From Gloeocapsa sp. DLM2.Bin57 (GTDB taxonomy: Bacteria > Cyanobacteriota > Cyanobacteriia > Cyanobacteriales > Gloeocapsaceae): 41,136 nucleotides of DNA. Each line of letters starts with the position of its first letter. The first letter of the stretch is position 1. Both the position numbers and the translations under genes were made by a program. Where the stretch lies: positions 1-41,136 of the forward strand of contig RECR01000056.1 in the NCBI GenBank assembly GCA_007693955.1. The letters are read 5' to 3'. The notes under the pieces were generated by a model that had not been told where the DNA came from, did not search any database, and saw nothing but the letters and a program-made list of their open reading frames with translations. Positions 24,992 to 31,544 of the stretch are shown here, piece after piece.

Positions 24992-26062
24992 ATGAACTCT
25001 CAAGAATACTTATCTGATTATGATTACCAACTACCACCAGAACTAATCGCTCAGACTCCTGTAGTTCCTAGGGATAGTTCTCGTTTACTGGTTGTAGATT
25101 CTCTTCTTACTCATCGTCATCTCTTGTTTAGGGATTTACCAGAATTATTACAACCAGGAGACTTGTTAGTAGTTAATGATACTAAGGTTATCCCGGCTAG
25201 ATTATATGGCTATAAAAAAACTGGCGCACCAGTGGAGATACTGTTATTAGAGGAGAGAGCTTCTAATCAATGGTTGGCTTTGGTTAAACCTGGTAAACGT
25301 TTTCGCGTTGGTACAGAAATTTATTTTTCTAGTTCTGATTCTAGTCAAGATAGTCTTAAAGCTGAAGTAATCGCTACAGATTCAGCAACAGGAGGACGTA
25401 TTTTACGCTTTTATCCTCCTGTTGGGGTGTCTATCTGGGATATCTTGCCTTTTTTTGGTCAAGTTCCCCTCCCTCCTTATATTACTACCCCCAATCAAGA
25501 ACCTTCTCAATATCAAACGGTGTACGCTACTAAACCCGGTGCGGTAGCTGCTCCTACCGCGGGACTTCATTTTACCCCTGAATTATTGACTAAGTTAACC
25601 CACATGGGTGTACAACGAACAGCAATTACTCTTCATGTAGGGGTAGGAACTTTTCGACCTGTAGAGGTTGAAAGTATCACTAGTCATCAAATGCACCAAG
25701 AATGGTTAGAGGTTAGTTCAACTACGGTAGAAACTATCAAATCTACTCAAGCTCGGGGGGGTCGTATTATTGCTGTCGGAACAACTGTAGTACGAGCGTT
25801 AGAAACGGCAGCAAATTCACCAGAAGGGTTACAAGCTTTTCGTGGTAAAACTGATTTGTTTATCTATCCTGGTTATAAGTTTAAGGTGGTTGAGGGGTTG
25901 ATTACTAATTTTCATCTCCCCCGTTCTACTCTGTTAATGTTGGTTAGTGCTTTAATCGGGAGAGAACGTCTGTTGAGTCTTTATCAAGAGGCGATCTCCT
26001 CTGGTTATCGTTTTTATTCTTTTGGAGACGCGATGTTTATTACCCCTGATGCAGTTAGTTAA
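24992..26062 (+). CDS. queA: S-adenosylmethionine:tRNA ribosyltransferase-isomerase QueA
   Basis: The 356-residue protein is full length. It shows the family landmarks: [14 protein letters not shown] at the N-terminus, [16 protein letters not shown], the conserved [38 protein letters not shown] and the ending [12 protein letters not shown]. It builds the epoxy-queuosine precursor on tRNAs with GUN anticodons. It is upstream of, and separated by about 60 bp from, the tRNA-Gly pair. Confidence 0.95.
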
Positions 26063-26109: not shown

Positions 26110-26122
26110 TGAATAGTTGCCA

Positions 26123-26193
26123 GCGGGTGTAGTTTAGTGGTAAAACCTCAGCCTTCCAAGCTGATGATGGGGGTTCGATTCCCCCCACCCGCT
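26123..26193 (+). tRNA. tRNA-Gly (UCC anticodon)
   Basis: The 71-nt cloverleaf has acceptor GCGGGTG paired with CACCCGC, D-arm with GTTTAGTGGTAAAAC, and anticodon stem TCAGC/GCTGA closing the loop CTTCCAA (anticodon TCC). The T-arm is GGGGGTTCGATTCCCCC. CCA is not encoded. It reads GGA and, by wobble, GGG codons. Confidence 0.95.
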
Positions 26194-26210
26194 TTTTGAC
26201 TTCTTCTAGT

Positions 26211-26281
26211 GCGGATATAGTTTAGTGGTAAAACCTCAGCTTCCCAAGCTGATGATGGGGGTTCGATTCCCCCTATCCGCT
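26211..26281 (+). tRNA. tRNA-Gly (CCC anticodon)
   Basis: A 71-nt near-copy of the preceding tRNA. The acceptor is GCGGATA with TATCCGC, the anticodon stem is identical and the loop TTCCCAA gives anticodon CCC, for GGG codons. The T-arm sequence GGGGGTTCGATTCCCCC is shared. It ends one base before the stop codon of the convergent flavin reductase gene. The 17-bp spacer to the first tRNA suggests one shared transcript. Confidence 0.95.
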
Positions 26282-28549: not shown

Positions 28550-29524
28550 TTATGCTTTTAAATCAACTAATTGCTTAGAATCGTCTTCTTCTATGTCTTT
28601 AAACAAAGGGGTACTGAGATAACGTTCTCCAAAACTAGGTTGAATCATCACAATCATTTTACCTTGGTTTTCTGGTCGTTTACCTACTTTAATGGCTGCA
28701 CATAAAGCCGCCCCTGCAGAAATACCCGAGAGAATACCTTCTTCTTTAGCTAAGCGACGACCATAAATCATGGCTTCCTCATCGCTAATGGTAACTACTT
28801 CATCGATTAATTCTACGTTGAGTACATCCGGGACAAATCCTGCGCCAATTCCTTGGATTTTATGGGGACCGGGATTACCTCCAGATAAAACTGGGCTGTT
28901 AGTCGGTTCAACGGCGATCGCCCGAAAAGAGGATTTATACTTTTTAAGTTTTTGGGCTACTCCTGTAATTGTGCCTCCTGTACCTACTCCTGAGATAAGG
29001 ATATCAACTTTACCGTCTGTATCTGCCCAGATTTCTTCTGCGGTAGTTAAGTTATGGATTTCTGGGTTAGCCGGATTACTAAACTGTTGAAGCATATAAG
29101 CATCAGCAATGGAGGCTACTATTTCTTGTGCTCTTTTGATACAACCACTCATCCCTAATGGTCCTGGTGTTAATTCTAACTTAGCGCCATAGGCTTTTAA
29201 CATTGCCCTTCTTTCTTGGCTCATAGTTTCAGGCATGGTTAAGATAATTTGATAACCTTTAGCTGCTGCTGCCATCGCTAGTGCTATACCTGTGTTTCCT
29301 GATGTTGGTTCAACTAGGATAGTTTTACCTGGGGTGATTAATCCCTCTTCTTCAGCTTTATTAATCATGTTAACCCCGATACGATCTTTTACCGAAGCTG
29401 CTGGGTTCATTCCTTCGAGTTTGACGATGATTTCAGCTACACAACCTTCTTGTTGGGGGATGCGATTCAGTCTAATTAGGGGAGTTTTACCGACTAATTC
29501 GGTAATATTTTCGGCAATTTTCAT
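28550..29524 (-). CDS. cysK: Cysteine synthase A (O-acetylserine sulfhydrylase)
   Basis: The 324-residue PLP enzyme makes cysteine from O-acetylserine and sulfide. Signature features are the PLP lysine K46 in [10 protein letters not shown], the substrate-binding TSGNTG (74-79), the phosphate loop [10 protein letters not shown] and [10 protein letters not shown] near the C-terminus. It is followed 1 bp later by a J-protein gene, and preceded by a structured RNA with terminator (29572-29775). Confidence 0.95.
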
Positions 29525-29571: not shown

Positions 29572-29610
29572 CGAAAAAGCAAAAACCCCCACAGAAGTAT
29601 CTGTAAGGGT
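29572..29610 (-). terminator. Strong intrinsic terminator upstream of cysK
   Basis: Read on the minus strand, ACCCTTACAGA pairs over 11 bp with TCTGTGGGGGT (29600-29610 with 29585-29595; two G-U pairs) around a 4-nt loop, followed by TTTTTGCTTTTT. It ends the RNA described at 29611-29775. Confidence 0.88.
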
Positions 29611-29775
29611 AAGTTGTTGCGGGTCTGCTAGTTGAAACCTGACTGCCGGGAGGAACTCCCACAAGTACAATATATATTGACTGTTAGAGAACAGCCCCGG
29701 CGCTCAGCCGGCTAACTTCAACTAGGAGACCCATGATTTTACTACTATCTGTCATGGGCATCACCTCCTTTGCTC
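29611..29775 (-). ncRNA. Structured RNA of unknown class upstream of cysK (leader or stand-alone RNA)
   Basis: On the minus strand a closing stem is formed by GGGTCT and TAGTTGAA (29717-29732) with TTCAACTA and AGACCC (29621-29637), about 15 pairs with one mismatch. It encloses further hairpins: AGCCGGC with GCCGGGGCT, CTGTT/AACAG, the palindrome CAATATATATTG, and GGGAG/CTCCC. A separate hairpin CCCATGA/TCATGGG precedes it, and the terminator follows. A near-perfect ribosome binding site and a 23-codon ORF overlap its 5' half. I recognise no Rfam class. It may be an attenuator for cysK or an independent small RNA. Confidence 0.65.
29684..29755 (-). CDS. Short ORF in the cysK leader, 23 codons, possible leader peptide
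   Basis: The frame starts MTDSSKIMGL and ends SAGAVL before a TAA. It is preceded at 8 nt by AAGGAGG within AAGGAGGTGAT, an 11-nt exact complement to the 16S rRNA 3' end. An upstream ATG at 29761 lies too close to that site. The ORF covers the 5' half of the RNA's closing stem, so translation would disturb it. I see no similarity to a known peptide. Confidence 0.5.
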   Translation of the reverse strand: MTDSSKIMGLLVEVSRLSAGAVL

Positions 29776-29848
29776 CCTAAGCGGTTAATGTCTTAGTTAG
29801 TTGTTGTCATTTAAGTTAGCATAGAATTTAGCAAAAGGCAAGGGATTT

Positions 29849-30718
29849 TTAAAATTTTGTCCAATTTTCGGGAATTAAATCACTGGTATCTCTGGATTTG
29901 ACGGCAAACCATTGTTTAGGTGCACAAACTATTTTGTCGGGATTGGTATTTAACCATGCTCCCCACCAGCTAAATGTACTATTAGCTATGATGTTGTGGT
30001 TACAAAGACTCATCAGTTGTAAGTCTTCAAAATCTGGTTGACTCTTGACAAAAATCATTTTATGTGGTATGTAAAAGTTAGCTTTTACCCAGTCTAAATC
30101 ATCAGAAAAGATGAAGAAAACGGGATTGTTAAGATATTGTTGGAGATAATTAACGCAGTTTTGATAATATTCGAGAGAACAAATGCCATGAATACGATTT
30201 AAATCTGGTTCGTTAACATAGTCTCCTCGACGAATGTGTAGGGAAACCGACTCACTATTATTTATTTGTTCTACAATTTTTGGATCGGGTTGAGTTTTAA
30301 AAGAAAAATCTTCTTGTAATAAAATATCGCGAATATCTTGAAAATACTTTTCTGTTTGCCAATACCCTTTTAAGTATAAATTTTTAGGTAAAGAAAATAA
30401 ACTAGGGTCAAATTCAAATCTAGTTTGATTAACAATCATTTTTTGAGGAGGTAGTTGTAATAACTTACGGGTTTTTGAGTTAAGGGAACTGAGGATATTT
30501 CTTTTAAAGAAGAAGTCTAAATCTGCTTGAGTAGCGATATTGTCTTGAATATTAAAACAATTAAGGCTATATTTACGCTTCTGTTTAAAAGTTTCTACAC
30601 CCTTGTACCAGTTAATATCTAATTTCAAGGAAGTGGAATGTAAAAGAGACAATTTTCTTCCTAAAGCGTATTGAAACATTTGGTTTCCTAAACCATCGGT
30701 TAGACGAACAATAATCAT
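29849..30718 (-). CDS. Alpha-1,2-fucosyltransferase-like (GT11) glycosyltransferase
   Basis: The 289-residue protein matches family GT11. It has an N-terminal VRLTDGLGNQMFQYALGRKL, the GDP-fucose-binding HIRRGDYV (near residue 162), FFIFSDDLDWV and the C-terminal NSTFSWWGAWL. Enzymes of this family transfer fucose from GDP-fucose to a galactose of a surface glycan. It has no membrane segment. No GDP-fucose synthesis genes are in the window. It is beside pseudogenes (30805-31544), the type of region where surface-sugar genes are gained and lost. Confidence 0.9.
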   Translation of the reverse strand: MIIVRLTDGLGNQMFQYALGRKLSLLHSTSLKLDINWYKGVETFKQKRKYSLNCFNIQDNIATQADLDFFFKRNILSSLNSKTRKLLQLPPQKMIVNQTRFEFDPSLFSLPKNLYLKGYWQTEKYFQDIRDILLQEDFSFKTQPDPKIVEQINNSESVSLHIRRGDYVNEPDLNRIHGICSLEYYQNCVNYLQQYLNNPVFFIFSDDLDWVKANFYIPHKMIFVKSQPDFEDLQLMSLCNHNIIANSTFSWWGAWLNTNPDKIVCAPKQWFAVKSRDTSDLIPENWTKF

Positions 30719-30804: not shown

Positions 30805-31121
30805 TTGTTGCGTCAAAAGATCTCAGAAACCTTAGCTAACTATGGATTCACTCAAACAACTGCGACTATTTTAGATATTGGTTGTGACTTGTCGGGAAAA
30901 CCAGATATTCTTATTAAAACAGCAAAAACAATACCAATAGCTGATAATTCGATGGGGTTGTTTCCTTTCAAGTACTCGAACACGTCTGGGATTTAGACTG
31001 GTATCTAGGAGAATGTTATCGTATCTTGAAACCAGGTGGCTGGTTATATCATCCCCGTCCTACAGATTGTCGTCGTTGGACTAAAGAAAATACGGGAATT
31101 ATGGAGACAACCGATACCTAG
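30805..31121 (+). pseudogene. Decayed SAM-dependent methyltransferase gene
   Basis: One frame reads ATILDIGCDLSGKPDI followed by IPIADNS. After a frameshift near 30965 another frame continues FQVLEHVWDLDWYLGECYRI, then LKPGGWLYHPRPTDCRRWTK and ends at 31121. Together these are the SAM-binding motif and the VLEHV, LKPGG and HPxPTDxRRWT blocks of a class I methyltransferase, with the first half shortened. The 5' end is not clear. It is not translated as one protein. Confidence 0.75.
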
Positions 31122-31187
31122 ATTAGAGTACAAATAGCTTATTATTAGATTACAGGACAACCAGAGATTCCCAAGAATTATTAACCA

Positions 31188-31544
31188 AGTTATAGGGGAG
31201 ATCCCAACGCGGGTATATTGGGTTTAGATAAGCAAAGATATAGTTCTTATGATGTTGGTCAATCTTTGTTGATTTTACCAAGTAATTGGTTAGGAATGAA
31301 ACTAGGTAGATTTTTTCCTCAATTAGCGGAAAGACAATTATTAAGATTCTGGGTAATTAATGCGGTAATTAGTTCTTTAGGTTTTTTATTATAGCTAGAA
31401 AACTTAATTTTCTTCTGGAGATATCAACCTGAAAATATAGAAATCGAGGAATTATATGAAGAATAACAAATAGCAATTAAATACTTGAAGATAACTTTTT
31501 TACCTTTTAACTTGAGAGATTTAGTTCTTAAAAATAATAATTAA
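31188..31544 (+). pseudogene. Decayed gene of an unknown membrane-type protein with two in-frame stops
   Basis: A single frame of 119 codons runs from 31188 to TAA at 31542-31544. It is broken by TAG at 31392 and TAA at about 31464. It reads GDPNAGILGLDKQRYSSYDV, later a hydrophobic segment, then FFWRYQPENIEIEELYEE, and a final ITFLPFNLRDLVLKN. The composition is protein-like throughout, so the stops look like recent damage. I do not recognise the family. Its true 5' end is lost. Confidence 0.65.

Follow-up and report, generated by a model that had tools for sequence, protein, structure and literature searches.

The window analysed here is a 41,136-nt stretch of DNA from Gloeocapsa sp. DLM2.Bin57 (contig RECR01000056.1), in which the element at positions 29572-29775 is a small, self-contained RNA gene with a very short open reading frame inside a conserved hairpin. 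It is encoded on the minus strand, with a glycosyltransferase-11 gene (29849-30718, Pfam PF01531) on one side and, on the other, cysK (28550-29524, minus strand; TIGR01139, 461.8 bits against a cut-off of 350.95), its downstream neighbour outside the element. Read 5' to 3' on this strand, a leader motif is followed by a Shine-Dalgarno (SD) sequence, an ATG, an ORF of 23 codons, a variable hairpin tip, the second strand of a long rod and a terminator. The leader motif ACCGCTTAGGG (29775-29785) recurs in relatives as ACCGYYYAGG, and the SD sequence AAAGGAGGTGAT (29760-29771) comprises 12 bases complementary to the 3' end of the 16S rRNA. The ORF MTDSSKIMGLLVEVSRLSAGAVL (29684-29755), as read from the sequence, begins with the ATG at 29755 and closes with a TAA that ends at 29684. 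Its 3' two-thirds (codons 9-23) are at the same time the 5' strand of the rod, and its stop codon sits on the 5' side of the upper-rod tip. The base of the rod, or closing stem, was located by folding and by comparative data at 29717-29732 (5' strand; helix 1) and 29621-29637 (3' strand), and the upper rod, consisting of two paired strands with the variable tip (helices 2-5 of the covariation alignment), occupies 29640-29715. A smaller hairpin around the start codon, CCCAUGA/UCAUGGG, can be read from the sequence at 29730-29758 (29758-29752 with 29736-29730). At the 3' end there is an intrinsic terminator with a T-run (29576-29610; 11-bp stem at 29610-29585), and at the other end a putative -10 box, TATGCT, was recognised by eye at 29818-29823; if the latter is right, the element measures roughly 230-240 nt in the window.

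Two further places in the window were noted. Tandem tRNA-Gly genes (anticodons tcc and ccc), separated by 16 nt, are found at 26122-26281 on the plus strand; they adjoin a queA-like ORF (24992-26062, named by eye), and short minus-strand ORFs overlap them. Beside the glycosyltransferase-11 gene, the plus-strand region 30805-31400 contains short ORFs which by eye resemble pieces of a methyltransferase and may be a decayed gene.

The original prediction of a structured RNA on the minus strand was borne out by folding: the 219-nt minus strand reaches -77.9 kcal/mol (z -4.0), with none of 200 shuffles equally good, and the plus strand folds less stably (z -3.0). Three of the parts that had been described are present, namely the closing stem of 15 pairs (GGGUCU-C-CUAGUUGAA / UUUCAACUAG-C-AGACCC, 29732-29717 with 29637-29621), the hairpin before it, which is the one around the start codon, and the 11-bp terminator with its T-run. 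A closing stem around three or more hairpins, as envisaged there, is replaced in the comparative data by one long irregular rod with a variable tip, for which 34 pairs were predicted in 25 sequences, three of these outside the rod. As the start-codon hairpin and the rod base both claim the same GGG, they cannot both form in full. The proposed alternative fold, in which a CCTCCC segment would sequester the GGAGG of the ribosome binding site, is rejected because the duplex energy of the SD sequence with the 3' strand of the rod is at chance level (z averages -0.15 over 113 loci and is below -1 in 15). Among 30 sampled loci the mean folding z was -3.0, with 24 below -2. The fold of a Gloeobacter-like locus (z -3.0) differs in detail, and in a Thermosynechococcus-like locus (z -2.0) the upper hairpin is predicted with other letters beyond a shortened ORF.

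A search for covariation in relatives, which had likewise been proposed, revealed conserved pairing in alignments of 25 and of 131 sequences. The larger one (A2) was drawn from 146 loci, of which 10 without a recognised 3' end and five that were identical or near a contig end were left out. The rod, counted there at 31 pairs, is paired in 95.7% of 4060 cells compared with 91.2% after shuffling and with 22-52% when it is slid out of register. Compensatory change was observed in 15 of the 31 pairs, doubly changed cells amount to 190 against 61.4 in shuffles, and none of 500 shuffles attained any of five rod measures. Pairing is 91.5% in helix 1, with compensatory change in five of its 13 pairs, and 98-100% in helices 2-5 across the 131 sequences. 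Under a stricter, self-made tree-aware null, only one pair stood above all 40 simulated alignments; we think this null too strict for a nearly invariant alignment and gave more weight to shuffles and slides. Judged by these comparisons, the hairpin is under selection as RNA. The start-codon hairpin is paired in 98.0% of cells with no pair changed on both sides, so that covariation neither supports nor refutes it.

The GGAGG had already been seen as a ribosome binding site, while the ORF of 23 codons that it serves had been missed. This ORF is open in 146 of 146 loci, with 23 codons in 138 and 24 codons in eight, and it is closed by TAA (80 loci), TAG (64) or TGA (two, one of them, L099, named Acaryochloris). 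Most loci (116 of the 146) were chosen by a pattern that joins the SD sequence and the ATG to letters of codons 8-12 across a gap of any length from 12 to 27, and these parts are therefore conserved partly by selection of the loci; the SD sequence, for instance, is invariant in A2 but had served to pick most of the loci. This pattern does not bear on the frame across the gap, the end of the ORF or the 3' strand of the rod, and the differences in ORF length are whole codons although any gap was permitted. In the own genome AAGGAGGTGAT-N4-ATG has a single exact match; with up to two mismatches it occurs at 49 places, the same number as for a reversed control.

A natural test of the stop codon is provided by family f58 with its 26 matched loci. 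Where codon 18 is not a stop (13 loci), the ORF always ends at codon 24; of the 13 with a stop at codon 18, 12 lack the one at codon 24. Both stops are present in L249 of this family and, by eye, in L191 outside it, and in L205, also outside and by eye, the early stop was gained and the late one lost. In our view, the late stop is maintained for its role in ending a frame, with few independent evolutionary events behind this test. Taken together, the comparative evidence is strong that the ORF is a real reading frame. A different picture was obtained at four loci of family f55 (L203, L204, L206 and L209), where the SD sequence and roughly the N-terminus are kept, the C-termini are unrelated and no rod is visible by eye; the element is perhaps decaying or changing there.

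At E ≤ 0.01, a covariance model of the 131 sequences matched 294 of the 388 class genomes, with a single match per genome except for one genome with two (G136), and its matches include a Gloeobacter-like (G112) and a Thermosynechococcus-like genome (G128). In a draw of 194 genomes from the phylum, 71 were matched, all within the own class, and no match was listed outside it. BLASTn with a 256-nt query (E ≤ 0.1) yielded a match in 93 of 100 genomes, the own genome counted; the match in G002 is at chance level (E 0.033) and those in the remaining matched genomes have E ≤ 3e-7. Within the own genome no match longer than 25 nt was obtained apart from the element itself, and chance matches of 15-25 nt there (L002-L008) were excluded from every count. 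A pattern scan of named genomes gave at least 116 stretches, and the 80 matches listed include records named Nostoc, Anabaena, Fischerella, Planktothrix, Okeania and Leptolyngbya. The covariance model found no match in 94 of the 388 genomes; among 20 of these that were listed, seven belong to the small-genome family f34, six to genus g90 and seven to other families. Searching again two genomes of g90 gave none (G115) and a 40-nt match at E 0.10 (G133), and no credible match was found in G076, G099 and G233, three of the seven in other families. A mobile or viral origin was rejected, as the pattern has no exact match in IMG/VR and one Fischerella copy no blastn match in plasmid or phage records. 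The element is thus a single-copy gene of less than about 300 nt that is kept in 294 of 388 class genomes including deep branches and has no Rfam model.

That the element could equally be a stand-alone small RNA ending at its terminator had been considered from the beginning, and this possibility is supported by the promoter and terminator motifs that relatives carry. TGTG[TC]TA is present upstream of the element in 102 of 141 loci (shuffled mean 3.2), and ACCGYYYAGG, with at most two mismatches and within 45 nt of the SD sequence, in 129 of 141 (shuffled mean 5.5). Downstream, GCGGAYRG stands before the T's in 137 of 145 loci, a motif counted without a shuffled control. The copy in the window has no exact TGTG[TC]TA, and its terminator no GCGGAYRG. 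The neighbours of the element change: the first downstream ORF in 138 loci encodes a pterin-4a-carbinolamine dehydratase in 76, an OprB/SLH porin in 28, cysK in six and other products in the rest. Downstream ORFs are here the longest non-overlapping ORFs of at least 75 codons and not annotated genes; gene family names were verified with a single representative for pterin dehydratase, porin, Rrf2 and psbD respectively, and with the cysK, glycosyltransferase and DnaJ-domain genes of the window. Shared signals next to changing neighbours argue that the element is a gene of its own. On the upstream side, psbD is the nearest ORF in 37 of 146 loci, and no upstream ORF was found in 40. Several elements lie near a contig end, possibly since psbD copies break assemblies.

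As to known families, Rfam 15 gave no match in the element, in searches of the whole window and of an 801-base stretch (E up to 1), and the RNA accordingly stays as unclassified as originally described. Likewise, neither 16 loci searched at gathering score nor 10 picocyanobacterial ones searched at E up to 1 gave a match, two of these 26 loci being the same place. A known RNA family was therefore rejected. A known peptide family was rejected as well, since four peptides (of about 100 distinct ones) had no match in Pfam or NCBIfam.

The closest description in the literature is that of ncl0160, an sRNA of Synechocystis 6803 with widespread homologues and an ORF of 23-25 residues preceded by a ribosome binding site, for which translation was judged likely and a predicted fold is given in Figure S2 (Brenes-Alvarez et al. 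2016, PMC4734099, in the parts available to us). Like our element it is a widespread cyanobacterial sRNA with a conserved short ORF and ribosome binding site. Its 83 homologues use 47 TAA, 34 TAG and two TGA stops (same source), compared with 80, 64 and two in our 146 loci. Presence in heterocystous and other cyanobacteria, a trait of the ncl0160 family, was found here too, in 294 of 388 class genomes and, among other named records, in Nostoc, Anabaena, Fischerella, Planktothrix and Leptolyngbya. Because ORF length, stop usage and spread match, identity with ncl0160 is very likely, and the copy in the window was for this reason assigned to that family as a new member. The element is probably ncl0160, judged by matching descriptions; in a letter-by-letter comparison its signature would be AGGAGGTGATG-YCC-ATG, GGGTC and CGGCAGT. 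Marine picocyanobacteria were excluded from the ncl0160 survey, and covariation, an overlap of ORF and hairpin, and an early-stop clade are absent from the available parts of that account (PMC4734099). The present analysis adds to these parts a hairpin that covaries and overlaps the ORF, the test of the stop codon, coverage of deep branches and a picocyanobacterial form. Our literature search found no second paper on ncl0160 and no function for the element, a text search with its sequence strings gave no match, and the available part of a paper on small Synechocystis proteins (PMC5126843) contains nothing on its ORF.

Two other structured RNAs with short ORFs invite comparison. The uORFC-6-1 motif is found mainly upstream of hflX in Bacillales and is, in the accessible portion of its description (PMC8632094), tied chiefly to one downstream gene, whereas the element precedes changing genes and carries its own terminator. 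Downstream-peptide RNA/Yfr6 (RF01704) is also a cyanobacterial structured RNA with a short conserved ORF; its structure, as far as the sections at hand describe it (PMC2864571, PMC1242208, PMC2518516), lies in the 5' UTR of the ORF, unlike that of the element, and the RF01704 model has no match here.

Reading frame and hairpin in the same nucleotides constitute an overlapping code that is open to exact mutant tests. In dual-function RNAs of the SgrS/RNAIII type, ORF and regulatory part are mostly separate, whereas in the element the ORF and the structured part are the same nucleotides. The likeness to SgrS and RNAIII consists in a small ORF and a structured RNA in one transcript (PMC2518516, in part).

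From sequence comparison, a conserved rod, a maintained ORF, changing neighbours and a wide single-copy spread can be regarded as established. The explanation we favour, with a probability of roughly 55%, is a stand-alone sRNA gene of the ncl0160 type with its own promoter and terminator and a very strong ribosome binding site, in which codons 9-23 of the ORF are part of the rod and translation gates the rod, with an action in trans or on the RNA itself. Ribosomes translating the ORF would melt the rod and thereby expose its 3' strand; as the stop codon is located at the rod tip, the geometry suggests that a ribosome reaching it must do so. An untranslated RNA would retain the rod. Translation might in this way gate the action of the RNA, be it its stability, the way it is processed or base-pairing between its 3' strand and other RNAs, and the element would act in trans or on itself rather than as a cis-switch of cysK.

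The main rival, which we regard as possible though clearly second, is that the transcript serves chiefly as a short mRNA encoding a functional micropeptide and that the rod only protects this mRNA or limits its translation. The kept frame fits a micropeptide mRNA and a translation-gated RNA alike, and the ORF, whose length, frame and stop are retained throughout the 146 loci, the strong SD sequence and the motif RLxAGAV near the C-terminus, which is kept as far as Gloeobacter-like loci, speak for a peptide. Against it, codons 2, 7, 10, 11, 13, 14 and 18 vary widely, Thermosynechococcus-like ORFs stop at codon 17 without the AGAVL end, picocyanobacterial ORFs end differently, four f55 loci have unrelated C-termini and the four peptides tried remained without a Pfam or NCBIfam match. 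Gating by translation is preferred because codons vary and some clades have a different C-terminus.

We consider it improbable that the element is a cis-acting leader-peptide attenuator of downstream genes (commonly pterin dehydratase, porin, Rrf2 regulator, cysK) whose rod controls readthrough of the terminator. In 127 of 138 loci the first downstream ORF does share the strand of the element, the order pterin dehydratase, porin, Rrf2, cysK, DnaJ-like is constant in 85 of 85 loci having at least two of these five families, and similar-looking leader-peptide RNAs exist (PMC8632094, as far as available). However, rod and terminator share no nucleotides and form no antiterminator in the predicted folds, and 11 of 138 loci, as well as 10 of 25 distant ones that include some weak matches, have their first neighbour on the other strand. 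In three of four loci of the Gloeobacter-like family f46 (L196, L197 and L200) cysK is even found upstream. The order in the window (element, cysK, DnaJ-domain gene) looks like the common one minus its first three genes, which would explain why cysK adjoins the element.

A purely non-coding sRNA with a fortuitous ORF would agree with the strong conservation and covariation at the RNA level, but is very unlikely given that all 146 loci preserve frame, length and stop, with three different stop codons in use, and that 12 of the 13 loci with an earlier stop have lost the old one. Least probable of all is the riboswitch, sensing a sulfur metabolite, or attenuator of cysK that had originally been suggested: it draws on the position of a structured RNA upstream of an adjoining cysK in the window and in six of 138 loci, and is rejected on synteny, this adjacency being the exception (and the first downstream ORF opposite in 11 of 138), with no Rfam match and a maintained ORF occupying the structure. 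The analysis thus corrects a tempting misreading of the locus.

A broader idea, put forward only tentatively, would make the element a core RNA of oxygenic phototrophs whose role is to report translational activity. Ribosomes moving along the ORF with its near-perfect SD sequence would keep the rod open and expose its 3' strand as effector, and a loss of translation, as in darkness or starvation, would close the rod. The RNA might go back to an ancestor shared by Gloeobacter and the other cyanobacteria, and might have been kept in altered form even in picocyanobacteria.

In these picocyanobacteria (family f34) the covariance model finds one genome, weakly (G353, E 0.0012), and a looser pattern detects a diverged form in 17 of 81 genomes. 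An ORF of 17 codons, for example MSSSCSMQGLLIAENAG, is present in 16 of the 17 loci and is shorter in L217; its C-terminal end differs from that of the main form. GGGTC stands opposite GGACCC in 11 of 17 loci, and a GGGYATYRTT terminator ends 16 of 17. When five of these loci were folded, the rod was the best fold in three and not in L225 and L230. The shared SD sequence, start, GGGTC position and layout make homology with the main form likely, though not proven. Within loci L214-L230, the segment GGGTCTGCTGATCGCGGAGAAC is very conserved in most cases.
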